64,000 bases of DNA, from assembly GCA_949710005.1 (NCBI GenBank), contig OX453285.1, forward strand, positions 7,549,632 to 7,613,631, given 5' to 3'. The DNA comes from Ricordea florida. Lineage: Eukaryota; Cnidaria; Anthozoa; Corallimorpharia; Ricordeidae. A program made the position numbers and the translations under genes. Under the pieces are notes generated by a model. That model was not told the origin of the DNA. It was given only the letters and a program-made list of their open reading frames with translations, and did no database searches. Positions within the stretch are counted from its first letter, which is position 1. Each line of letters opens with the position of its first letter. Of the stretch, positions 6,401-61,600 are shown in pieces.

Positions 6401-7624
6401 TTCATATGATATCCATGCTTGGTTGATGAGCGTGAACAAAAATCAAATTAGGAAAGAAAAAGCTAAACTTCAAAATGTCCAAACCAAGCACATTAAATTA
6501 AAGGGTCTTAGGCAAATGGTGGCTTCAAAAATCGATTTAGGCAATGTTGTTGTATATGTTGTAGTTCAAATTTATCCTTGGTTCAAATTTTATTTTCCTT
6601 TGTTTCAATCTCATTATCATACATTACCATACCAAAAAACAAAGGAAAACAAAATTTAAACCAAGGATAAAATTGAACTGCAACATATGCACTGTATGAA
6701 ATATTTCATTTATTTGTAGTGCGATTAGGGATGTAAGTGTAGATTTGACACTTGCAGAACGGGCCATTTCTGAGTTGCTGTTTGCCTCGGTTTCGGAGTG
6801 AGTCTTGGTGCTCAGCTACTGAAAGGGAAATGAGTTTGCTTTGCATAAGAATACGCAACTAATTTCCATTTGAATGGCTGTGCACCAGAACTCGCTTTGA
6901 AACCGAGATATGCAGCAACTCGGAAATTGGCTATTAAGGCTTTCACTCCCAAGACGTGATCAGCATTGAACTTCTCCATACAAGAACAGAGTAATGTGTC
7001 GCTCACTGTTGATGAGAATCACAGAAATGATCAACTCAGACATCACGAATTGATCAGACACCCAATTCTCCAAACTTAAAACCAAACGTATGAGAGTGGC
7101 TTATGAGAATTGCTATTCATATCTTGGAAATTAAGCACTTGCTTAAAAGCCTGGAAAAAGAACATCAAATTTTTTTTGAGTTTAAAAAGCAGTTTCCCCG
7201 TCTACGCGCGTTGTTGAGAATCTCTAATCCGTGGTGTAAGTTACGAACCCTATTTTTCCTGATAGATTTATGGCCCGCTTCGCTTTTGGGCCATAAATTC
7301 GAGTGAAAAAAAAATGGTCTGCAACTTAACAACATGGACCTTGAACAAGGCGGATGGTACAATTTCCATGATTTCCGTCAATACAAGAAGTCAAACACAT
7401 TTGAAAGATATTGTACATTTTCTGTAGTAGAACACTCTATAAGTAAAGGGCGGGGAGGAAGAATTTTTGTAACACGCTCCTGTGAAAGACCAATATCATC
7501 TGCTTTCAAATCATACCGGATAAGTTAACTGTTGATTGAAGTTTAGTCCGCGAGTTCAGGTTGGAAAGAGGTTTCTTAGAAGTAGCGAAATTCCAGTCTT
7601 CTTTTATTTGTCTTGTAGCTATAG
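6401..7624. other. Intronic sequence without recognised gene
   Basis: Only a short palindrome around 7266-7296 (TTTATGGCCC ... GGGCCATAAA) stands out. No coding family is recognised. Confidence 0.4.
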
Positions 7625-8633: not shown

Positions 8634-9492
8634 TCGAGCTTCTTGTTGAAAACCCGAGTTATAAATTGGACTTCGTTATTGTCTTCGTTCTTGAGACCCA
8701 AAACGCAGTCTATCAAGTAAAGCGCACGCGCTGAGTATGCTTTCATGAAGTATTTACCCAGATAAGCTTCAAAGCACATGGCTATCATGGCGGCCAGAAA
8801 GATGCCCCGTGATTAAAGGGGAAATATGTCTTTTCACACGTTCAAACTACGTACAAAAGCACACACTATTCGTGGTAGACCCACACTTAAAGATGTCGAG
8901 TGTTTTCGGAACGTGTCCTCGGTGCGCGAACTTTACAAGTGTTGATTCCACTATCAACTTTACTCAAAACTCTTGAAACTCAACGATTTTAATACTTAAG
9001 CTCCTGGGTAAAACTCAGGATAAAATCTCCGATAACAATCGATCGACCACTTTCCAAACCAACTAGGTCACATGGTATAAAGTTATACATACTTAGTCTC
9101 TCGGATGTCACGCCATCCCTATAAAACGGTAACAACAACGAGAGATCAACTCGGTCAACGTACGAGCGAATACTTTTGAGTGAGCCTTCTATCGAGAACT
9201 GTGCTATATCAAATGAACTATCTACTGAACTGTCTAATGTAAGCTCAAAACCTATCCAAGAGCATCGTCGACTATCTAGACATGATCGTGAACCAAGTAG
9301 AATACCTATATTTGGAATACTATTTGGAATATCTTAAGGACAAGAGCAGAAAGGTTAGAATGTTTCTTTACGAACGTATTCCTTCAACTATACTCAAATT
9401 ATCTAAATTGTATTGTTATGTGAAAGCTAGAGAAGAAGAAAGCAAAGTTTACTTTGAAATGCGCTGAGAAATTTAATCATCGTACAAGAATG
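8633..9492. other. Intronic sequence without recognised gene
   Basis: Nothing recognisable beyond short palindromic words. The open frame at 9282-9467 has no family signature. Confidence 0.35.
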
Positions 9493-9981
9493 TTAAGAGC
9501 GAATGCACACAAAAATCGAGCAAGGTGCGGCCACAACTCAAAACCTAACCTACCCTTATTTTGAGTCTAAAGGAAGATTTTAGTGAGATTAAGAAGGTTT
9601 TGGGTTTAGATCGAATTTTGTGAGAAAATCGAGATTTTCGATTTCGACGGTTTGAGGCCTCAATTTACTGTCAAAACCGGACAACGTGAACGCTGCCTTA
9701 TGTGGTTAGTAGATGTTTTTTGCCGGTTCTAGCGCATCCCCTGGAACCCGGAACCAGGAAAAACCGCCCAAAACCATGAATAAATATAATATTCCAATGG
9801 CTGATCTTCTTGGTAAATTAATATGTTTGGTGATTATTCCATCCTTATCCAGATTAATTATTAATGGTTCCGTTAATCTCACTAAAATCTTCCTTTAGAC
9901 TCAAAATAAGGGTAAGTTAGGTTTTGAGTTGTGGCCGCGATTTATCGATTTTGCTCGATTTTTGTGTGCATTCACTCTTAA
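9493..9981. mobile_element. Inverted-repeat element carrying a capsid-gene fragment
   Basis: Inverted repeats of about 100 bp (9493-9592 and 9873-9981) begin TTAAGAG(C/T)GAATGCACAC and run through GAGTCTAAAGGAAGATTTTA. Between them, 9776-9871 is nearly identical in DNA to part of the capsid-like gene at 60.1 kb. The minus strand stays open for about 36 codons and keeps the INLPRRSAI core. It looks like a MITE-size non-autonomous element that captured, or was reduced from, a Polinton capsid gene. Confidence 0.75.
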
Positions 9982-10016
9982 AATGTATATTTAGTCAGTA
10001 TTTGTCATTGTTTTCA

Positions 10017-29903: not shown

Positions 29904-30660
29904 CCTTTGCTGTGAACTGGGTCAGTAAGGTATGGAACACTGGTTTGGCCGTGCATCCTTACGAGAACTGATTGGCTAACGAATGTCGCTCCACTTAACC
30001 GATGGGGAATATAACGAAAATGAGTGGCGACTCGATCGCTCGTTTTCCGGCGCTAAGTCTGTACGCCATGCATTTGCTTTGAATTGTGATTGGTTCATTG
30101 TAAGGACTGCTTCTGTTGTGATTGGCCACAGCTATTTCTTTGGCTTTGGTTCTACAATAGTTATTAACCCATTCACTCCCAAGATCTGAGTAGCAATTGA
30201 CTCAAGTGACTGCCATATATTTGGTTTTAAGTTAGTTTGGAGAATTTGGTGTCAGATCAATTCATAATGTCTGAGTTGATTATTTCTTTGATATTTATTA
30301 ACAGTTAGCCATTCATTGCATTGTTTGTGTATGGAGAAGTCCCACGTTGATCTTGGGAGTGAAAGGGCTAAAAGCCGTATTATCCTCGCTTTAAGTGTCA
30401 CTTTATGCTGTAATAGTTAGTGTTAATTAACTAAAGCACACTAATCAAGATCACCCCATTGCTGCCCACCTGCCGGCATATATAAACGTGTGATCTTTAG
30501 ACTGAAAATAAAGTATATGGTCTTTTTATTGTATAGACGTGATTGTTTTACTGGGAATAGCCCTTATGCGTGATGATGTCACGATTTCTTTGGTAACTTC
30601 AAAACGAGGCTTGGTGATGCTTTCGCGGGAATATTAAAAAACATAAAGGTCAGATCGAAC

Positions 30661-36875: not shown

Positions 36876-36881
36876 TAATAG
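36876..36881. repeat. Left target site duplication (TAATAG)
   Basis: Identical 6-bp TAATAG borders the left and right (58,870-58,875) ends of the large element. Polintons characteristically duplicate 6 bp. Confidence 0.85.
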
Positions 36882-37732: not shown

Positions 37733-37807
37733 GTATAAAAGTTAAATAAGGTTTCAGACGTCGTAGTGATTGGTTTAAGGATTATAATTTTAAAATCCAA
37801 TGATGCT

Positions 37808-38479
37808 ATGGAGAACTTAACAGTGAAAGACTTGAGGTCAATAGCTAAAAAAGCTGGTGTAAGTGTTCGTGGATTCAGAAAGGCTGAATTGCTCGAAGCG
37901 TTATCTGATGTACAACCCGAGAACTTGACAGTGAAGGTATTAAGAACCATAGCTAGGAAGACTGGTATACAAGGTTATGGCAACATGCGTAAAGCGGCTC
38001 TCATTAATGCTGTCGGATCCCCACGAGTGGCTGAAGCTAATGTTCCAATTCCTGGTCCAGTTAGGCCCATAAGAACAAGGCCCGCCCGAGCTTCATATAG
38101 AAGGGCTATTGCTTTTGCCAGGGATGAAATTAACCAGACCATAAATTGGATAGGATCTAATGTTAGAGAACCAAATAGGAGGGCTATTACTAGGAGATTA
38201 AGAAGGGCAGCCAATGTAATTAGAAGGGGACCCGATTATTTCATCCCTCAAAGACATGAAACGGCTCTGAGAGGCTTTTTGAGGACTTATATAGTAAAGG
38301 GTAGAGCTGGGTATGATCCAACTTCATTCCTTAGCGAGGTTAGATCACCATTCTATGTTTTGATGCGTAAACATAGGAAGCCATTCAAGTTGAAGTGTAT
38401 TCTTTCATGCAGCTTCATAAGGAGGAACAACCAGGATAATCGTGTTGTTGAGCGGACCAAGGTCATTTCCATTCACTGA
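37808..38479 (+). CDS. SAP-like DNA-binding protein upstream of PolB
   Basis: The start at 37,808 (MENLTVKDLRSIAKKAGVSV) gives 223 residues. Two tandem SAP/Rho-N-like helix pairs (residues about 2-34 and 40-70, both with LTVK.LR.IA) are followed by a basic Arg-rich region (RRAITRRLRRAANVIRR). SAP motifs bind DNA; here the protein could be a replication partner or terminal-protein-like factor for the protein-primed polymerase (inference). Its stop overlaps the PolB start as TGATG. In related cnidarian elements this C-terminal sequence can be continuous with PolB, so a frame change at this join is also possible. TATAAAAG at 37,734 may be a promoter. Confidence 0.75.
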   Translation: MENLTVKDLRSIAKKAGVSVRGFRKAELLEALSDVQPENLTVKVLRTIARKTGIQGYGNMRKAALINAVGSPRVAEANVPIPGPVRPIRTRPARASYRRAIAFARDEINQTINWIGSNVREPNRRAITRRLRRAANVIRRGPDYFIPQRHETALRGFLRTYIVKGRAGYDPTSFLSEVRSPFYVLMRKHRKPFKLKCILSCSFIRRNNQDNRVVERTKVISIH

Positions 38480-41400: not shown

Positions 41401-41673
41401 CAGAAGGAAGTCAAGAAGTGTAAGGGTGTTAACAAGGCGGTGGTCAGTAAGAGTATAAGTTTCCAGGATTACAAGACTTGTCTTTTCAGTGGCCAATCCC
41501 AGAGAAGGAAGATGAATACCATAAGGAGTCATAAGCATGACATCTATACTGAAACTATCAATAAGATTGCATTATCACGCGAGGACGATAAACGTGTGAT
41601 AATGGAAGATGGGATAAACACTTATGCACATGGTCATTTCAGGACGCTGGAAGGTGGTGATTTAGTGTCTTGA
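38479..41673 (+). pseudogene. polB: Protein-primed family B DNA polymerase with one in-frame amber
   Basis: The whole frame is 1,064 codons plus stop, interrupted only by TAG at 40,006-40,008 (codon 510). Order: N-terminal region; a C2HC finger (CDNC...H..YC); exonuclease motif I DFE (Asp258/Glu260); an HNH/EndoVII-like zinc module CHIC...DHCHLTGKYRGAAH..CN; exonuclease II NLSGYD (Asp409); exonuclease III Y-L-K-V-D; polymerase A YLDANGLYG (Asp664); B KLMNNSVFG (Lys798, Asn802); C FTDTDS (Asp898, Asp900). This is the pPolB of Polintons and adintoviruses, which replicates a linear genome from protein-capped ends. All catalytic residues are intact on either side of the amber. Its last 40 bp overlap the integrase gene tail to tail. 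Confidence 0.93.
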
Positions 41674-42623
41674 GGTACAAATTGAAGCTCTTCACGAACG
41701 AATCCTCGTTTTGGACCCCCACTCAAATAATACAAGACTGGTTGACCCGGCTTGATTATGGTTCGGGCCAAATCATAGACTTCAAGGCTCCATATGGGAT
41801 CAGTAGCCCGCCGTTTGTCACCACCTTCATCTTCACCGGGGGCATATAGATATCTGACTGGGACATCTGGAGGTAACCTCTTCTCATCCAGTCCCACAGG
41901 TCGCTTATAGTCTGGAGTTTTAGTGCCAATTGAGTCCATTTTCAAAGCTTCATCAGGCTCTTTACCAGTAATACGGGTAGTTTCACTATTGAGGGTCTTC
42001 ATGATGTCAGGCAATCTGTTCACCCAAACTGTGGATCTGGTATCACTAACCATCTCTTGAGCGTATTGATGGCTGAATAACTTCTCACCGAGAGTCCTAT
42101 TGGCTCTTTCCACAAAAGCCTGAGCTCTATGATTACCAGCTTCACTCCGCTGGATTGTGACTTCATGCTTATTCATAAGATTTGTTACATCACCCTTGAA
42201 TTCTGTTCCTGGGTCCACCATTAATGTATGTGGCCACTTCAACTTACGGGAATAAATCCTTTGAAAGGCATTGGCAACTTCACCACTCTCCTTTGAGGTC
42301 AATGGCTCGGCATCCTTATATCTCGAAGCAATATCAATCACGACTAATGCATAGCGGTATGTTTTTCTTCTCACTGTATCATGAGGAAGAAACAACAAGT
42401 CCGCTTGATGAATCTGATTAGGCTTATTCACACTCCAATGTGGCCTGGGTATATACTTGGGGGCTGGGAGATAAATTTGCCACAAGGCTTGCTTCTCCAA
42501 CCACTCTTTGGCGACCTTTTCACTAACTTTAGCTGCTTTGGCTAATTTGGGTATGGCCGAGTATCCTTTCCAGTATCCATTAGTGGAATAATATAATCGA
42601 TTTAAAACGTTGGAATCAGCCAT
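41634..42623 (-). CDS. int: Retrovirus-like integrase (rve), D,D35E
   Basis: 329 residues, intact. The catalytic triad is Asp75 (HQADLLFL), Asp137 (MVDPGTEF) and Glu172 (FVERANRTL), with exactly 35 residues between the last two. An N-terminal helical domain (YWKGYSAIPKLAKAAKVSEK) and LYLPAPKYIP-type linker precede the core. A C-terminal SH3-like end (LYYLSGGPKRGFVREELQ) is typical of Polinton integrases. It joins the viral ends to host DNA, producing the 6-bp duplication. It is the only minus-strand gene in the central block; its start is 27 bp from the capsid start, so they share a divergent promoter region. Confidence 0.95.
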   Translation of the reverse strand: MADSNVLNRLYYSTNGYWKGYSAIPKLAKAAKVSEKVAKEWLEKQALWQIYLPAPKYIPRPHWSVNKPNQIHQADLLFLPHDTVRRKTYRYALVVIDIASRYKDAEPLTSKESGEVANAFQRIYSRKLKWPHTLMVDPGTEFKGDVTNLMNKHEVTIQRSEAGNHRAQAFVERANRTLGEKLFSHQYAQEMVSDTRSTVWVNRLPDIMKTLNSETTRITGKEPDEALKMDSIGTKTPDYKRPVGLDEKRLPPDVPVRYLYAPGEDEGGDKRRATDPIWSLEVYDLARTIIKPGQPVLYYLSGGPKRGFVREELQFVPQDTKSPPSSVLK

Positions 42624-42650: not shown

Positions 42651-43283
42651 ATGACTTCTATATCAAACATTCTTGATACCAATCGTGTTCCAAGGACTCG
42701 TGAAGGGTTGAAGGCTATGACATCATTAAATAGGGTCACGCTAAACCCATCATCTGCAGAACCTGGGGAGACATTATACATTGAAATACCAAGATTGAGT
42801 GAGAATTTAGTGATTGTGCCTGGTAGTGTCTACATAACCTTTGATATGGTTGTAACCGGGCACAAAGACAACACTCTTGTTAATAATTTGGGAAGGAATC
42901 TAATTTCACAATATAAGGTTCTATTTGGTGGTGAAATCATAGAGGATCTTAGTAGATTTGATTTATTCAAAACTTATCATGATTTGTTTTTGACAACTGA
43001 AGATCGTGAGAATAGATTGAGACAGGGTATATCTGATGTTAATATAAGGAAAATTAGAACCAATGCGGGGAACAAAGATACATCAAAAGCAAAGCATAAT
43101 ACTTTAGCCGTGATTCATAACACTAGATATGCTATTCCATTAGATCACACAATCCTCAAAGGTCATGGAGTATTTTATCCAATAGGATTACCACATCCAC
43201 TTAGATTTGAATTGACTTTGGCTAAAGTTTCTGATGTTGTAGTTTATTCAAACAGTGAAACACCACCTGATTATAAATTAACT
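42651..43283 (+). pseudogene. Capsid-like protein (MCP candidate), N-terminal half
   Basis: MTSISNILDTNRVPRTREGL opens a frame that aligns with the minus-strand copy at 60.9 kb: NRVTLNPSSAEPGE, LVNNLGR, FGG..., DRENRLRQGIS, HGVFYPIGLPHPLRFELTLA. Homology stops after DYKLT; the remaining codons to 43,319 come from inserted DNA. Both copies are about 410 residues when the halves are counted together. This beta-rich family recurs in cnidarian Polinton-like elements and I infer a jelly-roll major capsid role. No direct structural proof is visible. Confidence 0.7.
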
Positions 43284-43549
43284 AGAAATACGACTCCAGC
43301 AAAAACCTCGCGAAGCTAGTTTTTGAAGAAGTCACAATGCTTTCATATTTTATTTTTTATTTGATATTTTTCATGTTAGGGTAATCCCCATTATTTTATT
43401 TGTTACGCTGTGTTTGGTACACAATTAGTGACACCTGGTGCAAATTACATGATCAGTATACGGCTCAACACATTGCTTAAAAATTGACCTTTATTTAGCT
43501 CTTTCACTGCCACTGAGAGTGCACCAGAGGGAATAGAAGTAAAATTATT

Positions 43550-44760
43550 GATTATCTTGACAGGGATTACAGAGTCGATGAAGTATCACAATGATATTCA
43601 CTTAACACAAATTGTGTATTTACTTATTATTATTATCATTTTCACTTTTTGTACTTTCTCATTTCTTGTAATTATTATCATGATTATTATTATTGTATTA
43701 ATCATAATCATTCTGATTACTGGTATTGATATTATTATTGTTATTTTTTATATGTAACATAATATACTGTTATGGGGTGGGGGTGTATGTTCTAATCTGG
43801 AAAAAGGTATTTCACTTTTAAACTCAATATTTTCTTACTCGGAGGATGAGTTGAATGCTCCAATTATTTATTGTTTATGCTTTTTTCTTATAACTGCATG
43901 AGATTCATTGTAAGAAGAATCTTCTGATTAGATATTTTATTGTCTACTGCAGTCATTATTTCATTCCTAGGTAACCACAATTGAGAGCATTATGAATAGT
44001 ACATGTTTCAATTTGTGCACTCTCTTCAGTTGAAATGGTTCCCCCAGTGGTAGATAGAAAAATTCCTCTTCCCTCAAAAAGAGATGCCATATCAACAGAA
44101 CTGTGTGATACAATGTCATTACCTAAAACAATTGGAGGTAAAACAATTGGATTCTACAAAAACTTTGAACAAATGTTTGGTAATAGTGAGTACCAACTGT
44201 ATAGTATGTGGTTGTGCTATTTTTAGGTCATATCATAAAAACAATACATGTAAGAAAGAGTTATTGAAATCTTAATATGTTGAAAAAGATGGCTGCACTA
44301 GATATGCCTGTAAAAAATAATGTGAAATCAACATCAATCAGTCAAAAGTATATGCCACATGAAAGTTTAATTGTGCTGTTACAGAAACAGGCAAAATATC
44401 CATACCCAACCAGAGAATAGTATATGATTTTGAATATATGAAAATTTCGATTATAAGAACTGCAGAAGAAAGATTTGATATAAGGATGGTATTTCATCGA
44501 AAAAGTCATGGCAGCTAGAGGTATTGAACTGTAACCAATGACATATAGTAATGAGAAGCACTATTATTATATTACTATCATTATTATAATTATCATTATC
44601 ATTATTACTGGTATTGATATTATTATTATTGTTATATTTTTTATGTTAGACATAATTTATTGTTATGGGGTGGGATGCATGTCCTAATCTTGGTAAAGGT
44701 ATTGTTACTTTACTACTACAAACAATACAAAAATCTTCTTTAAAGCTTAGAATGTAGTGC
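43550..44760. repeat. Diverged direct duplication in the insertion
   Basis: 43,620-43,810 and 44,560-44,710 share (ATT/ATC)n followed by ATTGTTAT...ATGT and TGTTATGGGGTGGG, then TCTAATCT and AAAGGTATT. No coding content. Confidence 0.6.
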
Positions 44761-45306
44761 AGTCATTTGTCTATAAAGTTAGTGTGGAAAATCGTGATTG
44801 AAAGTATAGGGCATTTAGGAAACTTGAAACACTTGTTACTACATACAGCACACTTGCAATGAATATATGAGAAAGATCATAAACATTTTGACATTACAAA
44901 ATGTATTGTCTTCTTTACAAGGTTTTTCCAATGTAAAAGCTCAACTGTATGTTGTGGTTGTTATTAAATGTTAATATTTGACATCATAAAAATGAAGTAA
45001 ACAGCAGAAAATAACAAGGTTAATATGTCTAAGTTTGCAAATTAAGGCTTGTATTAACATTTCATTTGTGGGAAAGGGACAGGGGTTCTAGATAGCAATA
45101 TTACCAGGGGGTCATTGAACTATAAAGGTAAAACTGACCCATTGTGAAAAGGCTATGAAACTTGTTGTATCAACGCAATATTATTGAAACTTTTCAATCA
45201 GAGAATACATATATATATATATATATATAAAAACGTTAGATAAAGCAAGGACGGACAACTTCTGACGATAAAAAAGTTAAAAAGTTAAAAATTTGATAGA
45301 AAAAAC

Positions 45307-45330
45307 GTTTCGGTCTTAGACCTTCGTCAG
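45307..45330 (-). ncRNA. Hammerhead ribozyme core (minus-strand copy)
   Basis: The minus strand reads CTGACGA, a GGTC/GACC stem with TAA loop, then GAAAC: the invariant CUGANGA...GAAA core. Stem III would be very short, as described for Penelope-type hammerheads, which may act as dimers. Confidence 0.65.
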
Positions 45331-45537
45331 TTACAGGAGAAAAAGGACGGAAACTAAGTTTAAATACGGTTACAGTGTGGGAGATTACATACCGAAATGA
45401 AAAATACTATCGTGCTATTAATACATCGTGATTAATACAATACAGGGAAAAAAATGCAAAACGAGAAATACAATGCTGTACTATAAATTACGTCATACAG
45501 GGTGATAATTAATAGACTGTATTATAGACTATAATAG

Positions 45538-45806
45538 ACTGTAGGTTTCGTAACCACAAGTCTGCTATGCTCACAAACAAAACCACTTGTGAGGTAGCAG
45601 TACATTTCAATAAAATTCCACACTCCTTGGATGATTTTGAATTCCAATGCATTGATCAGGTGCAGGCCCCTAATGACTTAGACGAGATCGATAGGTTTTT
45701 AATTACGAAAGAGGCTTATTGGAGTGCTCAACTGTTTTCTATGGCTCCCCATGGCTTAAATAAAAGAAAAGAATTTCACTCCAAAAACAGAATTTGTTAT
45801 AATTAA
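45538..45806 (+). pseudogene. Penelope-like GIY-YIG endonuclease C-terminal fragment
   Basis: The frame from the edge of the left arm reads RFRNHKSAM, then CEVAVHFN..PHSLDDFEFQ and KEAYWSAQLFSMAPHGLNKR. This is the conserved RF.NHK / HFN...HS..D / E.YW...L....PHGLN order at the C-terminus of Penelope-like element proteins. The reverse transcriptase and GIY-YIG motif proper are missing by 5' truncation. Confidence 0.8.
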
Positions 45807-46390
45807 CTTTCTCCTGTGTAAATATGCGTTTGCGCCATAAAGCAGTCCAAAAGCCCTTCCTTGGATTTTGCCAGCTCTTTGGGTGTTAGGTATGCTCAAA
45901 GGCCCTGCCTGGGATCTTATTACAGCTTATTGTTTAAGGGCCCCTCCAGGGATTTTGTTGTTTGTCAACCCTTTAATGCTCCAAAGGCCTCGATTTGGGA
46001 TTTTGTTATTAACCCTGTCCAGCGTAAACGTAGGTTTCTTCTGCATATTTTTGTAAACTAGTTTTCCCGTAATATTTACCGCATTGCAAGAGTCCGTTTT
46101 ATCTATTTTAACTATTTTAGTTTTTAGGTTGAATTTAACCTAGTTCTGCAATTATCCCGCTTTATAATGTAATTTATGCACAGCATTGTATCTTTTTCGT
46201 TTGGTCTATTAATTATCACCCTGTATGACGTAATTTATAGTACAGCATTGTATTTCTCGTTTTGCATTTTTTTCCCTGTATTGTATTAATCACGATGTAT
46301 TAATAGCACGATAGTATTTTTCATTTCGGTATGTAATCTCCCACACTGTAACCGTATTTAAACTTAGTTTCCGTCCTTTTTCTCCTGTAA

Positions 46391-46414
46391 CTGACGAAGG
46401 TCTAAGACCGAAAC
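46391..46414 (+). ncRNA. Hammerhead ribozyme core (plus-strand copy)
   Basis: CTGACGA, stem GGTC-TAA-GACC, GAAAC, followed by GTTTTTT. Sense with the GIY-YIG fragment, in the 3' repeat. Same core as the minus-strand copy. Confidence 0.7.
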
Positions 46415-46492
46415 GTTTTTTCTATCAAATTTTTAACTTTTTAACTTTTTTATCGTCAGAAGTTGTCCGTCCTTGCTTTATCTAACGTTTTT

Positions 46493-46586
46493 AAATTCAT
46501 TTTTGTGGTGAGGCTTGGACTGTGAATCTTCATTGATCCTCCTGACGCAGTGGCATTCTTTGTTGGCTTGAGGCATTTTATAACCG

Positions 46587-46628
<42 letters not shown>

Positions 46629-47507
46629 CAAAGAGAAATACTACTCAGAAGTCAGTAATAACATTTGCTTTATTTTCAAATGATCGCATTGATCACTGAT
46701 AATATTGCAGAACCATCACTTTATAGTGACACTGGGTATATATTCTGTTGAAAATGCTAAACATAACTGCTAGATCAAGAAAATTTTCAATATTTTCACT
46801 GTTGCAATGATATCAGATCACATCGTTATAAATGATTGCTATCACAACTGCAACATTCTGTGTTGGGAATTTCTTCATAATGGAAACGCTATCTTTTTAT
46901 TACGAAAAAATACCTACTTACATTCTCTTGTAATCTGTTGCTTGTCTTCCGATTCCGTTTTTAGACTAACAGAATTATTTTCCAGAGACATCTCCAATCG
47001 CTGAAGTCGTTCCTACTCGGTTTCCCTTAAACTAAGTCGTTTTGCTAAATTTAGTACGCCAATATATGTCGTTATGTAATCGCTCACTCATTTCCTGTAT
47101 TTCTATCAATAACACACTCAGTTTCAAAACTAACTTGGTTGAATTCCTGGTCCTTTTCCCCGCTGTTTCATTTTCCCTTTTTTTTTCTGAGCGAGCAGTT
47201 GTTGTCTTTGCTGCGATGTTTGTTATTCTCCCTGCTGTCGTTTCTTTGAGTCATCCTTTTCGTGTGTTGATTTTCACGGTATTCGAACTTACTCGGCGAC
47301 GATCTCGAGCTAATCTTTCTTGAATATCTCGGATATCTTCTTGCTGGGATGTACTTCCAGGACGAGTGAAATCGGTTTCCACAAAATTTACATTACTTTC
47401 AAAAAAGCATCACCGAATTCCCAATGGCGGAAATTCAGCAGTTCTCAAATGCGCTACTATTGCCAGGTAACCACGCCTGCGAACGGACACCTTTAAAATA
47501 TAGATAT

Positions 47508-47580
<73 letters not shown>

Positions 47581-47660
47581 TAAAAACTCTCGGCTCGATT
47601 TACTCGGGCTTGCGAGCCACGTGGTCTGACCGGAACCGACACGATTAGTAACCTCGCTTC
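46493..47660. other. Rest of the insertion, unassigned
   Basis: Contains (TA)n at about 46,593-46,626 and 47,508-47,582. The minus strand between 47,440 and 47,000 has coding-like pieces (VETDFTRPGSTSQQEDIRDI) with stops, but no family is recognised. Confidence 0.4.
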
Positions 47661-47670
47661 GCGAGGAATA

Positions 47671-57084: not shown

Positions 57085-57453
57085 ATGACATCATTGGCAA
57101 TCATTGGCAGTAGATACTTTTCTGACAGTATCTTCTTGAAAGAAGAAATGCATAAAGCCCTAAAGAAATGGAAGCTAAAACTCTCAGACATTCAATTGAT
57201 CGTATCTGGAGGTGCAGAGGGGGTTGATGAAATGGCTAGAGATTTTGCCATTGAAAACGAAATACCATTCAAGGTGTTTGAACCTCAATGGGACTATTAT
57301 GGCAGGGCTGCTGGCCCAATTCGCAATAGAGCTATCATGGAGTGTGTGACGCATGTATTGGCCTTACCTTCTCGTATATACTCACCAGGTACTAAATCAG
57401 CTATTAAGATGGCTAGGAAATACAAGAGAAAGGTTATAGTTGTCTATGTGTAA
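57085..57453 (+). CDS. DUF2493/YspA-type SLOG nucleotide-binding protein
   Basis: 122 residues covering the whole family length. Diagnostic motifs in order: AIIGSRYFSD (Rossmann start), LIVSGGAEGVDEMARDFAIE, FEPQWDYYGRAAGPIRNRAI, VLALPSRIYSPGTKSAIKMA, and a final beta strand VIVVYV. This cpYpsA-related SLOG fold binds nucleotides or ADP-ribose-type ligands; related proteins occur in phages and large viruses with unclear roles. An accessory gene, followed 14 nt later by the conserved hairpin. Confidence 0.88.
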   Translation: MTSLAIIGSRYFSDSIFLKEEMHKALKKWKLKLSDIQLIVSGGAEGVDEMARDFAIENEIPFKVFEPQWDYYGRAAGPIRNRAIMECVTHVLALPSRIYSPGTKSAIKMARKYKRKVIVVYV

Positions 57454-57506: not shown

Positions 57507-57962
57507 TTATAAGTTTAAGGGGTCACAATCTTGACAAAACTTCCTTATACGTTGATGTTTACAAACATATTCACCAAAACATATGTTACATCTACTCTTC
57601 TTATTATTGGTTTTACGCTTACCATGTATACAATATAAATGAGGGCTACATTCTTTACAATTATATTTTATTATACCATGTGAACAAATACTTGAACCAC
57701 CACATTCTTTGCAATAAGGTTTTTGTCTATCATGTAAACAAATACCGGCACCACCACATTCTTTACAATAATATTTTCGTCTACCATGTAAACAAATACC
57801 AGCACCACCACACTCTTTACACATAAATTTTTGTCTACCAGGTGAACAAATAGAGGAACCGCCACAGTCTTTACAAGAATACTTTACTCTACCATGTGAA
57901 CAAATAGCGGACCCACCACACTCTTTACAAAAACATTTTTGCCTTCCATGAATACAAGACAT
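57507..57962 (-). CDS. Cys/His tandem-repeat (zinc-ribbon-like) protein
   Basis: The start at 57,962 (MSCIHGRQKC) gives 151 residues; an earlier non-ATG frame would run through the hairpin upstream. Five near-perfect repeats of about 18 residues: C-x-H-G-R-x-K-x3-C-K-x-C-G-G-x2-I, plus degenerate ends (YCIHGKRK; VCKHQRIRKFCQDCDP). Similar CxH...CxxCGG arrays occur in giant virus proteins. Probably zinc-binding; function unknown. Codons are AT-rich like the neighbouring right-end gene. Confidence 0.8.
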   Translation of the reverse strand: MSCIHGRQKCFCKECGGSAICSHGRVKYSCKDCGGSSICSPGRQKFMCKECGGAGICLHGRRKYYCKECGGAGICLHDRQKPYCKECGGSSICSHGIIKYNCKECSPHLYCIHGKRKTNNKKSRCNICFGEYVCKHQRIRKFCQDCDPLNL

Positions 57963-58011
57963 TTCTATACCAGTCACTATACTATTTAACACCTTATTCA
58001 ATTTTCTATAC

Positions 58012-58038
58012 TTTTGTAACACGATCTATGTTACAAAA
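58012..58038. terminator. Conserved 3' hairpin, copy 3 (reverse orientation)
   Basis: Arms TTTTGTAACA / TGTTACAAAA. Read on the minus strand the loop is TAGATCG and the hairpin begins 14 nt after the stop of the right-terminal gene, as at the left end. Confidence 0.7.
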
Positions 58039-58869: not shown

Positions 58870-58875
58870 TAATAG
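58870..58875. repeat. Right target site duplication (TAATAG)
   Basis: Matches 36,876-36,881. Confidence 0.85.
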
Positions 58876-59288: not shown

Positions 59289-59293
59289 AGTCG

Positions 59294-59616
59294 AGTAGAT
59301 GTATTTCGCCGATCCAGGCGCACTGCTTAAAATCCACCTTTTAAAATCCATACCTAAAAACAACCCAAAACCAGTAAAATCCACCAAAATCGAACTAAAC
59401 CCCAAAATCGGATCATAAGAAAACTAAACAACTTCAAGCGAATCACACAGAGCAGAACCAAAATAATAATCCCAAAAAAAACAAAATAAAAATCCCAAAA
59501 ACCAAAATCAAAATCCCAAAAATCAAAATCAAAATCCTAAAAATTTAGTATCCAAATTCGATGAAAATTTATCCCAACGACCCTTGAAAACAACCCGACC
59601 AACAGTTTCAGCGAAT
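59294..59616 (+). repeat. Mini-element left inverted repeat
   Basis: Pairs with 61,068-61,449. Includes AATCAAAATC runs whose differing lengths explain the size difference. Confidence 0.85.
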
Positions 59617-59685
59617 CTCCTAGCAACTTTTCAACAAAATGCAAGCAAAATACCAGCAGATTATCAATAAATAAACCAAAAATAG

Positions 59686-60918
59686 TCAATATTTTATTGA
59701 TAATAACGATTCATCTTGAATTTCACATAAAGCACCTGCTACTAGATATACATGACCGATTATCTGACCAGTGCCAGTTTTATTTCTATGGATGTTTAAT
59801 TTGATTCCTTCATTTCCATTCACTAATGACCTACCGGACCCGTGGATATTATTATCAAAATGAGATCTTAGATCTATCCATAGTGCAAATTTATCCGAGT
59901 AAAAATCGATTTTACTTAAATTATCGGTATCATACCGCTGTTTAATAGAACTCCATAAGTCTATTAAAACCATGCCCTTGGAATGCAATGTATCTGGAAC
60001 CCCTTCGATTTCTATTGAAACAGACGTTATATCTGGATTCAAAAGTTTTTCAGAGTTTCTTAATCCATTATTACTATCATCGATGAATAAACATATTTCA
60101 ATGGCGGATCTTCTTGGTAAATTAATATGTTTGGTGATTATTCGATCTTTATCCTGATTAATTATTGATGGTTCCGTTAGATAAATATTTTCATAATAAT
60201 ATCCCTTCCCATCTTTGTAGACCTGTTCAACACCACTTGATAAGAAATCACTGTGAATAGTCCTGTATTCTAATTCAATATTTGTTAATTGATAATTAGA
60301 TGGGTTAGCAGAATTCGTGTAGTAAACAATATTTTTCACAGCTGCTAGAGTTAACGCGAATTTCAAATTATCTTCCAAAGAGTATGGATAAAAGACTCAC
60401 CCATCGTTTAAAACGGGATGATTAATCGGAATGCAAAATTGTCTTCCATGAATTTTAGATAATAAAACATCTTTGGATTTGCTCGTATCTTTATTACTTG
60501 CGTTTGTCGGCAATCTTCGGATATTTTCGTTTGAGATACCCTGTCTTAATCGGTCACGTCTTTCTTTTTGGGATAAGTAAAGGTCTTTGTATGTCATAAA
60601 TAAATCATATCGATCAACATCCTGAAGCAATACTCCTCCAAAACTTACTTTCAATCGTTTAACTAGACATCTACCGATATCATTGACGATTGTATTGTTT
60701 TCATGATCCGAAACGGTTAAATCGAAGATCAGAAATACGCTATTCAGAACGAGAACCATATTCTGATTTAAACGTGGAATTCCAATCTCGATCATTTCTC
60801 CTGGATTGGCAGTAGACGGATTGAATGTTAAACGGTTTAGGGAGTTTTCTCCTTTTAGTCCAAAACCTGTCCTAGAGTACTGATTGGGATCCAACGATTG
60901 ATTTACTACGTAATTCAT
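59686..60918 (-). pseudogene. Second capsid-like protein (MCP candidate) with one in-frame stop
   Basis: One 411-codon minus-strand frame from ATG 60,918 (MNYVVNQSLDPNQYSRTGFG) to 59,686, broken only by TGA at 60,397-60,399 (codon 174), at a point where the Polinton copy has Gly. Matches the split capsid gene along its length: LNRLTFNPSTANPGE, LVKRLKVSFGG, RRDRLRQGISNENIRRL, FYPYSLEDNLKFALTLA, INLPRRSAIEICLF, FYSDKFALWIDLRSHFDNNI, HGSGRSLVNGNEG. Beta-rich, no membrane segment. Capsid role inferred from its linkage to Polintons. Confidence 0.75.
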
Positions 60919-61023
60919 TTAAAATTGAAAATAGTTTCAATTTTAGTAATGATATTGGAAGCTGCTAAATTATACCAACAACATGTAAGTTGGATTAATG
61001 AATGGTTAAGAAAAGCAAAATTT

Positions 61024-61060
61024 GGAATGTTTATATCCAGGCTACGGATATAAACATTCC
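61024..61060. promoter_or_regulatory. Perfect 15-bp-arm hairpin upstream of the capsid-like gene
   Basis: GGAATGTTTATATCC and GGATATAAACATTCC with 7-nt loop AGGCTAC, at the inner edge of the right inverted repeat and about 105 bp upstream of the ATG at 60,918. Confidence 0.7.
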
Positions 61061-61067
61061 AGCGAAA

Positions 61068-61449
61068 ATTCGCTGAAACTGTTGGTCGGGTTGTTTTCAA
61101 GGGTCGTTCGGATAAATTTTCATCGAATTTTGATTTTAATTTTTAGGATTTTGATTTTGATTTTGATTTTGATTTTGGGATTTTTATTTTGGTTTTTGGC
61201 GTTTTGATTTTGGTTCTGTTCTGTGTGATTTGCTTGAAGTTGTTTAGTTTTCTTATGATCTGATTTTGGGATTTTGATTTTGATTTTTGGAATTTTTTAA
61301 TCCGATTTTGGGATTTTTGATCCGATTTTGGGGTTTAGTTCGATTTTGGTGGATTTTACTGGTTTTTACTGGTTTTGGGTTGTTTTAAGGTATGGATTTT
61401 AAGGGGTGGACTTTAAGCAGTGCCCCTGGATCGGCGAAATACATCTACT
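61068..61449 (-). repeat. Mini-element right inverted repeat
   Basis: Reverse complement of the left repeat, ending GGCGAAATACATCTACT. Contains (GATTTT)n. Confidence 0.85.
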
Positions 61450-61600
61450 AGTCGTACACGCGTTTAACTTCACCTTCAAAGCCACCGGTTGCATAATTAA
61501 CAATTATTGGATGAGGCTGAGTATGATATGAAGAATTATACAGGTCGAGAAGGATAATAACCGCCGAAGCCGAAGGCCATTCTCCTGTTCTCTCAGATAT

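Follow-up and report, generated by a model that had tools for sequence, protein, structure and literature searches.

A 2.2-kb capsid-coding element of Ricordea florida is probably a dead member of an ancient non-autonomous family derived from Polintons

Results

A short element with a capsid gene and a second small gene

We examined a 64,000-nucleotide stretch of the Ricordea florida genome (assembly GCA_949710005.1, contig OX453285.1, positions 7,549,632 to 7,613,631; here called the window), which carries a short element coding for a major capsid protein. The element proper, as read from the sequence, occupies positions 59294-61449 (2156 bp) and is flanked by the 5-bp target-site repeat AGTCG on the left (59289-59293) and right (61450-61454). 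The mobile unit with long inverted repeats and 5-bp flanking repeats proposed in an earlier, sequence-only reading of this DNA is therefore real. The left terminal inverted repeat (59294-59616, plus strand, 323 nt) begins with AGTAGATGTATTTCGCCGATCC, and the right one covers 61068-61449 (minus strand, 382 nt). The two are identical at 294 of 310 aligned bases, and the indels between them fall in A/T-rich simple sequence. When the 22-nt end of the unit was searched for with up to three mismatches, only its own two ends were found in the window (chance expectation 0.00).

Between the repeats lies a major capsid protein gene of the double jelly-roll family (59686-60918, minus strand, 410 codons plus stop). 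A gap of 30 nt (60919-60948) separates its start codon from that of a second, divergently oriented small gene (60949-61116, plus strand), the 3' part of which is inside the right terminal repeat. The unit consists of the capsid gene and this gene of about 55 residues only, without a replication gene. The earlier description of the unit as capsid-only was thus incorrect. The second gene appears related to the N-terminus of an integrase. The window copy is dead: its capsid frame holds a stop and its small gene is frame-broken.

Translation of the capsid frame from 60918 to 59689 on the minus strand gave 410 codons with one in-frame stop and no frameshift, which bears out the single, nearly intact 410-residue capsid-like gene of the first description. 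The open pieces are 60400-60918 and 59689-60396. Assignment to the double jelly-roll major capsid proteins is backed by family matches, and virophage capsids were among the fold matches. The predicted structure of the window capsid's own C-terminal piece was poor, and sequence searches of solved structures returned no matches. Compared with the full-length Polinton capsid P0041, the window capsid is 48.5% identical across residues 1-412; it is about half identical to known Polinton capsids, and the capsids of the short element form a distinct clade on the longest branch in the trees built. No relative of this capsid was found in scans of IMG/VR viral contigs or in a scan of a genome-contig collection. 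Likewise, none of 35 viral contigs sharing a 15-mer of the element's end reached 20 of the 25 end bases or held a capsid match.

The small gene was found by aligning 31 copies of the supposed 5' spacer, which revealed a frame diverging from the capsid start. In other copies this frame stays open over some 55 residues, and the other two forward frames contained stops in all 11 tested copies in which it was open. A perfect hairpin in the same spacer was considered as a conserved signal and rejected, having no counterpart in the other aligned copies. A profile of the small gene matched only one of the 446 open reading frame (ORF) segments of the large Polinton in the window, the integrase N-terminus, with the similarity falling on residues 38-60. 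All eight small-gene peptides tried scored above all 500 shuffles against the integrase. An hhalign comparison with the integrase gave p 1.1e-4 over 23 columns, and controls with two other Polinton proteins gave p 0.28 and 0.60. The gene order is also alike, as integrase and capsid of the large Polinton diverge from a 27-nt gap. A Pfam search with two small-gene peptides returned no family. From these comparisons the small gene resembles a divergent relative of the Polinton integrase N-terminus.

Copies across the host genome

The host assembly (537.8 Mb, 48 contigs) was searched for further copies. From 813 DNA candidates the best 40, including the window copy, were scored and fetched, with 148 matching stretches. 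Further copies of the unit, a search for which the sequence-only reading had suggested, were thus found genome-wide and in number. Alignments ran from the capsid to both terminal repeats in 17 of 40 loci and to at least one repeat in 35 of 40; in 11 of 40 a single unbroken alignment reached both. One alignment crossed the 3' edge of the capsid in 25 of 40 loci, the 5' edge in 29 and both edges in 18. The inner repeat and the genes are common to the copies. The outer repeats vary between them, and the outermost 82 nt of the window copy had only seven matches in the genome.

A pair of AGTAG-like ends was present in 15 of the 40 loci; six of these are 2.04-2.16 kb long and the rest 1.2-1.8 or 2.3-3.1 kb. 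A 5-bp target repeat was exact in seven of the 15 two-ended copies and within one mismatch in 12, compared with 1.0% and 2.4%, respectively, when flanks of different copies were paired as a control. Exact repeats of 4 or 6 bp were found in none of the 15.

No full-size Polinton was found around a capsid of this clade in the 40 loci or in five more distant loci fetched (described below). The contrary scenario of the earlier reading, in which all other copies are full-length Polintons and this one is an internal deletion, did not hold in the loci examined. Matches to Polinton ORFs occurred in the flanks of five of 43 further loci (the 39 other copies plus L076-L079). We take these to be neighbouring Polintons, as worked out for L059 only, because there the integrase is convergent with the capsid and not divergent as in a Polinton.

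A search with the inner-repeat pattern gave 32 matches, from which the four extra loci L076-L079 were examined. Sister elements, which would combine the inner repeats or the small gene with clearly different cargo, were seen neither in these nor in eight others (L105-L112) and were rejected: the 12 loci proved to be capsid remnants, repeats alone, deletion derivatives, fragments carried by foldback elements, or the small gene alone. Matches to one Polinton ORF (37766-38479) lay near L108 and L112 and are possible exceptions. In L105-L107, fragments of the short element (small gene plus partial capsid) sit inside a foldback-type element with arms of about 1.5 kb that are about 99% identical; L108 resembles these loci, but arms were not found there. 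L111 and L112 hold the small gene with the capsid start only. The window contains a diverged short relative of this foldback element at about 9490-9984, and inside it a fragment of the same capsid lineage (9776-9875, minus strand), 90% identical to 60083-60179. A codon test on the fragment gave five nonsynonymous and two synonymous changes, too few to inform.

Searches with the small gene listed at least 150 matches genome-wide, from which the eight loci L105-L112 were taken. At L109 and L110 (contig C2, 43.0-43.8 Mb) diverged copies of it are clustered, about 55% identical and several with open 56-residue frames, with no capsid match within the fetched stretches. This cluster could be a segmental duplication or something kept.

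Selection on the capsid frame

Copies were aligned to the coordinates of the window copy with nothing mended, and one segmental duplicate was left out of the variant classes. The pairwise ratio of nonsynonymous to synonymous change (dN/dS) in the capsid had a median of 0.26 (762 pairs) and dropped from 0.73 in the four closest pairs to 0.22 in pairs at a distance of 0.20-0.25. Variants found in a single copy were spread evenly: their rates per site were 0.68, 0.64 and 0.60 at the first, second and third codon positions, and noncoding sequence had 0.57-0.64. Variants present in at least five of 39 copies occurred at 0.15, 0.08 and 0.46 per site at the three positions and at 0.21-0.36 in noncoding sequence. 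The third-position share was accordingly 0.311 (bootstrap 0.284-0.338) for single-copy variants and 0.669 (0.613-0.723) for those in at least five of 39 copies; with the 15 two-ended copies only, it was 0.37 for single and 0.67 for shared variants. The flat distribution of single-copy variants, together with the third-position excess of shared ones, indicates purifying selection during spread and neutral decay after insertion. Purifying selection on the capsid frame, which the sequence-only reading had named as the test of its proposal, was thus detected both in dN/dS and in the shared variants. Its alternative of neutral decay in all copies was not what we saw, the neutral pattern being confined to single-copy variants.

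Distances at capsid third positions were correlated with those of the noncoding flanks (r = 0.65), a value reached by none of 2000 label permutations; capsid and flanks have therefore travelled together.

The small gene also looks to have been under purifying selection during spread, more weakly than the capsid. Among its variants, 19 of 37 found in five or more copies were at third positions, compared with 33 of 105 single-copy ones. Against distant members its pooled dN/dS was 0.32 (single values 0.20-0.57; the pairs are non-independent).

None of the 22 near-full capsid copies checked was intact: 21 carry stops or frame changes, and the remaining one is the window copy, the stop of which lies between the two query pieces. 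Half of the divergence between its end repeats predicts 1.14 capsid stops, so the single stop present fits the age of this copy.

We also searched the genome with the C-terminal piece of the capsid at the protein level and scored 150 of 5522 candidates. Among the matches listed, 27 were 53-100% identical and the others 46-49%. The latter were ordinary Polinton capsids without a stop, and no listed capsid fell between the clade of the short element (at least 53%) and the ordinary Polintons. The five lowest-identity members of the upper group (L080-L084) are 53-60% identical in the C-terminal part of the capsid. In all five, inverted repeats enclose the capsid and the small gene, an anatomy scored from repeats and genes apart from exact ends and target repeats; L080 has an insertion within the capsid. 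No other Polinton ORF matched in any of the five stretches. In comparisons of the window copy with three of these members capsid dN/dS was 0.15, 0.16 and 0.11; for the other two dS was saturated. From the shared anatomy and low dN/dS, we conclude that the anatomy is old and that the capsid has been selected as far back as traceable here.

The neighbouring Polinton and its ends

A full-size Polinton of about 22 kb, of the probable helper type, occupies 36882-58870 (plus strand), and the short element starts 423 bp from its right end. The target repeat is AATAG, 5 bp (36877-36881 and 58871-58875); a 6-bp repeat, TAATAG, was considered and rejected. Integrase and capsid are divergent; these two and the ATPase were identified from homology or from weak matches in Pfam. 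The integrase (41634-42623, minus strand) matched rve with E 6.6e-7, just under Pfam's cut-off. The polymerase is probably split over two ORFs, named from order and content and without a Pfam polymerase match. The capsid is 92-94% identical to P0050 and is interrupted by an insert of about 4.4 kb (43281-47667). This insert holds a 1.27-kb unit (45225-46496) with 293-nt arms that are 99.7-100% identical, which we read as a recent foldback insertion or one of the type of miniature inverted-repeat transposable elements (MITEs). Two further ORFs of the large Polinton were recorded, one of 171 residues with tandem Cys-rich repeats (57507-58022, minus strand), relatives of which lie near copies L067 and L071 of the short element, and a SLOG/DprA-like one (57085-57453, plus strand; YAcAr E 1.7e-9, DNA_processg_A E 1e-7).

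The ends of the two elements are alike. The earlier count of 20 matches in the first 25 terminal bases was correct for the left ends (36882 and 59294), as was the remark that the rest of the repeat is unrelated: beyond about 30 nt the repeats of both elements look unrelated. A joint 25-nt end pattern matched five times in the window, at both ends of both elements and at 9708, with 0.01 matches expected. AGTAG is common to full-size and short elements, as is a T(C/T)CTGG core lying some 20 nt inward. This core was found in eight of 15 ends of the short element, preselected for AGTAG-like starts, compared with 1.7% of random host windows. It was present in nine of nine Polinton ends, but those ends were found with, or were the source of, a pattern containing the core.

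Related Polintons are plentiful in the host. The integrase had 122 scored genome matches, out of 5819 candidates, at 95-100% identity, 117 of them without a stop. We fetched the ends of 10 of these Polintons; four yielded both ends, and all four had an exact 5-bp target repeat, which in one case lies in an AT repeat and carries little weight. Full-size Polintons of this genome, the one in the window included, thus make 5-bp and not 6-bp target repeats. For vertebrate Mavericks, one report (PMC8097293) gives 6-bp target repeats and (AGT)2//(ACT)2 or (AG)3//(CT)3 ends, and ties the repetition at the ends to protein-primed replication. The 6-bp repeat was found in neither the short nor the full-size elements here, but the full-size ends do start with AGTAGT. 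As their target-repeat length of 5 bp and their end motif agree with those of the short element, the full-size Polintons are likely its helper, and the same machinery could act on both kinds of end.

Very large expansions of Polinton capsids were also seen: at 90% identity, cluster P0097 has 4980 member sequences and P0031 has 254. Elsewhere in the window is a THAP-domain gene, of a domain not known outside animals and so in keeping with an animal host. The window also has two inverted repeats (6929-7127 and 30179-30376) of about 76-81% identity, separated by 23 kb, that may belong to an older large element.

Discussion

We consider it probable that the unit in the window is a dead copy of an ancient non-autonomous family that is derived from Polintons, needed its own capsid to propagate, and likely had Polintons as its helper. 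By its anatomy the unit looks like a Polinton that has undergone two deletions. A gene carried by a defective element can be under selection only if it benefits that same element. If a helper capsid were freely shared, the capsid gene of the satellite would be left unselected; yet it was selected, which suggests that the satellite needs its own protein. The capsid-keeping mobile satellite of the sequence-only reading therefore stands as a multi-copy unit with a selected capsid, but not as a capsid-only one. Its possible use of a helper's integrase and polymerase is suggested by the shared ends and the length of the target repeat. The satellite might also compete for capsids or supply them, as proposed there.

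Several observations weigh against this interpretation. Shared noncoding variants (0.21-0.36 per site) were less frequent than those at third positions (0.46), and the flanks are an imperfect neutral yardstick. At the 90% threshold, the window capsid (14 of 56 and 17 of 80 columns) deviates from conserved positions more often than does any of 25 representatives, a difference exaggerated by the choice of representatives nearest to another query. Ten of 30 departures are private to this copy, 15 are common to the clade and five are mixed; the clade-wide ones are in line with specialisation or with partly relaxed constraint, and constraint on part of the capsid has possibly been relaxed. The match of the small gene to the integrase spans only about 23 residues, with an hhalign probability of 57%. 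Present activity of the family is doubtful, because all 22 near-full copies checked are disabled. The results on family, selection and depth come from one genome only.

Proximity to the end of a full-size Polinton might suggest a lone internal deletion beside its parent, without wider meaning. We give this next to no credence: the dozens of copies across the genome refute it, the capsid shares only about half of its residues with known Polinton capsids, whereas that of the neighbour is 92-94% identical to P0050, and the terminal repeats are unrelated past about 30 nt. An isolated deletion was accordingly rejected on the genome-wide copy search. Recurrent deletion is a better-founded alternative, although still an unlikely one. 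An unseen autonomous Polinton with this capsid would repeatedly spawn short copies, and selection would act in the parent while the capsid of the copies was passive. The Polinton-derived capsid, ends and apparent integrase remnant would be expected in that case, as would the death of every near-full copy checked. It is harder to reconcile with junctions between genes and repeats that the copies have in common (both in 17 of 40, at least one in 35 of 40), with noncoding flanks that co-evolve with the capsid, or with the same anatomy in five members that are 40-47% divergent in the C-terminal part of the capsid. Nor did the matches listed, with 150 of 5522 candidates scored, include a capsid between the 53% clade and the Polintons at 46-49%.

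Strong selection on deep branches of the capsid despite the death of all near-full genomic copies checked, together with the long persistence of the family, could also be accounted for if the units were the endogenised satellite or segment of a mainly extragenomic, possibly multipartite Polinton-like virus, with other segments outside the assembly. We regard this as distinctly unlikely, as no sister element with clear other cargo was seen in the four loci L076-L079 or the eight loci L105-L112, the IMG/VR capsid scans were empty, and a helper is already at hand in the plentiful full-size Polintons, whose ends are compatible. A capsid useful to the host, as an endogenous viral gene retained to restrict Polintons, would likewise be selected, and the abundant, largely uninterrupted Polinton integrases and capsids of this genome could provide its target. 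However, the signal of selection is limited to shared variants, those in single copies being neutral with a third-position share of 0.31, and the copies have transposon ends and target repeats, all of which makes such a role very improbable.

Under the interpretation of a Polinton-derived family dependent on its own capsid, the following course of events may be envisaged. A Polinton would have lost all but the start of its integrase and the divergently oriented major capsid gene between the terminal repeats. As the product kept its ends, a co-resident Polinton could replicate and insert it, acting through the common terminal 25-30 nt and supplying the protein-primed polymerase, intact integrase, penton and packaging ATPase. 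The satellite capsid might build or resize a particle for a 2.2-kb genome, or capture packaging, and the small integrase-like protein might bind the element ends or recruit the helper integrase. More tentatively, and somewhat short of what we would call probable, the family may be an ancient DNA satellite virus of animal Polintons that has two genes, for a specialised capsid and a mini-integrase adaptor, borrows its enzymes from full-size Polintons through the shared ends, and is or was transmitted in particles built entirely or in part from its own capsid.

The unit shares a double jelly-roll major capsid protein with Polintons/Mavericks (Polintoviruses, adintovirus-like elements). At 2.2 kb, compared with about 22 kb for its neighbour, it lacks polymerase, complete integrase, ATPase and any other Polinton ORF and is not an autonomous element of that kind; the end motif and 5-bp target-repeat length of co-resident Polintons instead place it with Polinton-derived non-autonomous elements. 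Selected genes are normally absent from MITEs and other non-autonomous DNA transposons. The unit resembles these transposons in having ends without a transposase, an apparent origin by internal deletion and many dead copies, but differs in a capsid frame that was selected during spread. Like satellite viruses, it encodes its own capsid protein. Capsid-coding satellite viruses such as satellite tobacco necrosis virus have a tiny genome with their own capsid as the main product and are replicated by a helper. The tiny capsid-coding genome is a likeness, as helper replication would be; that virus is a plant RNA virus with an unrelated capsid, whereas the unit is integrated double-stranded DNA with inverted ends in an animal genome. 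Virophages (mavirus, Sputnik) are satellites too, have a double jelly-roll capsid and are relatives of Polintons. They have about 20 or more genes and giant-virus helpers, in contrast to two genes and a likely Polinton helper here, where nothing seen points to a giant virus. A plausible analogue is provided by the phage-inducible chromosomal islands, integrated satellites of a larger element that alter capsid formation. As described in PMC6431247, they interfere with helper capsids and package 15-30 kb of DNA; they are bacterial, much larger, and unlike the unit do not code for little but a capsid.

No description of capsid-only or non-autonomous Polintons was found in the literature covered, which was mostly open-access papers and did not include Repbase. 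A capsid kept under strong purifying selection across deep divergence, in a defective element left with little else than a small integrase-like gene, is hard to explain unless the capsid aids the element's own propagation. If the family is indeed a two-gene satellite virus, animals would harbour a capsid-coding satellite of an integrated double-stranded DNA element, and this would provide indirect evidence that Polinton capsids are used. Because many closely related, largely uninterrupted Polinton integrases co-reside with it, the helper and satellite pair could be sought in one animal. In other genomes such satellites could pass for mere deletion remnants; a short unit with Polinton ends and a capsid frame with a third-position excess in shared variants would be the signature by which to recognise them.
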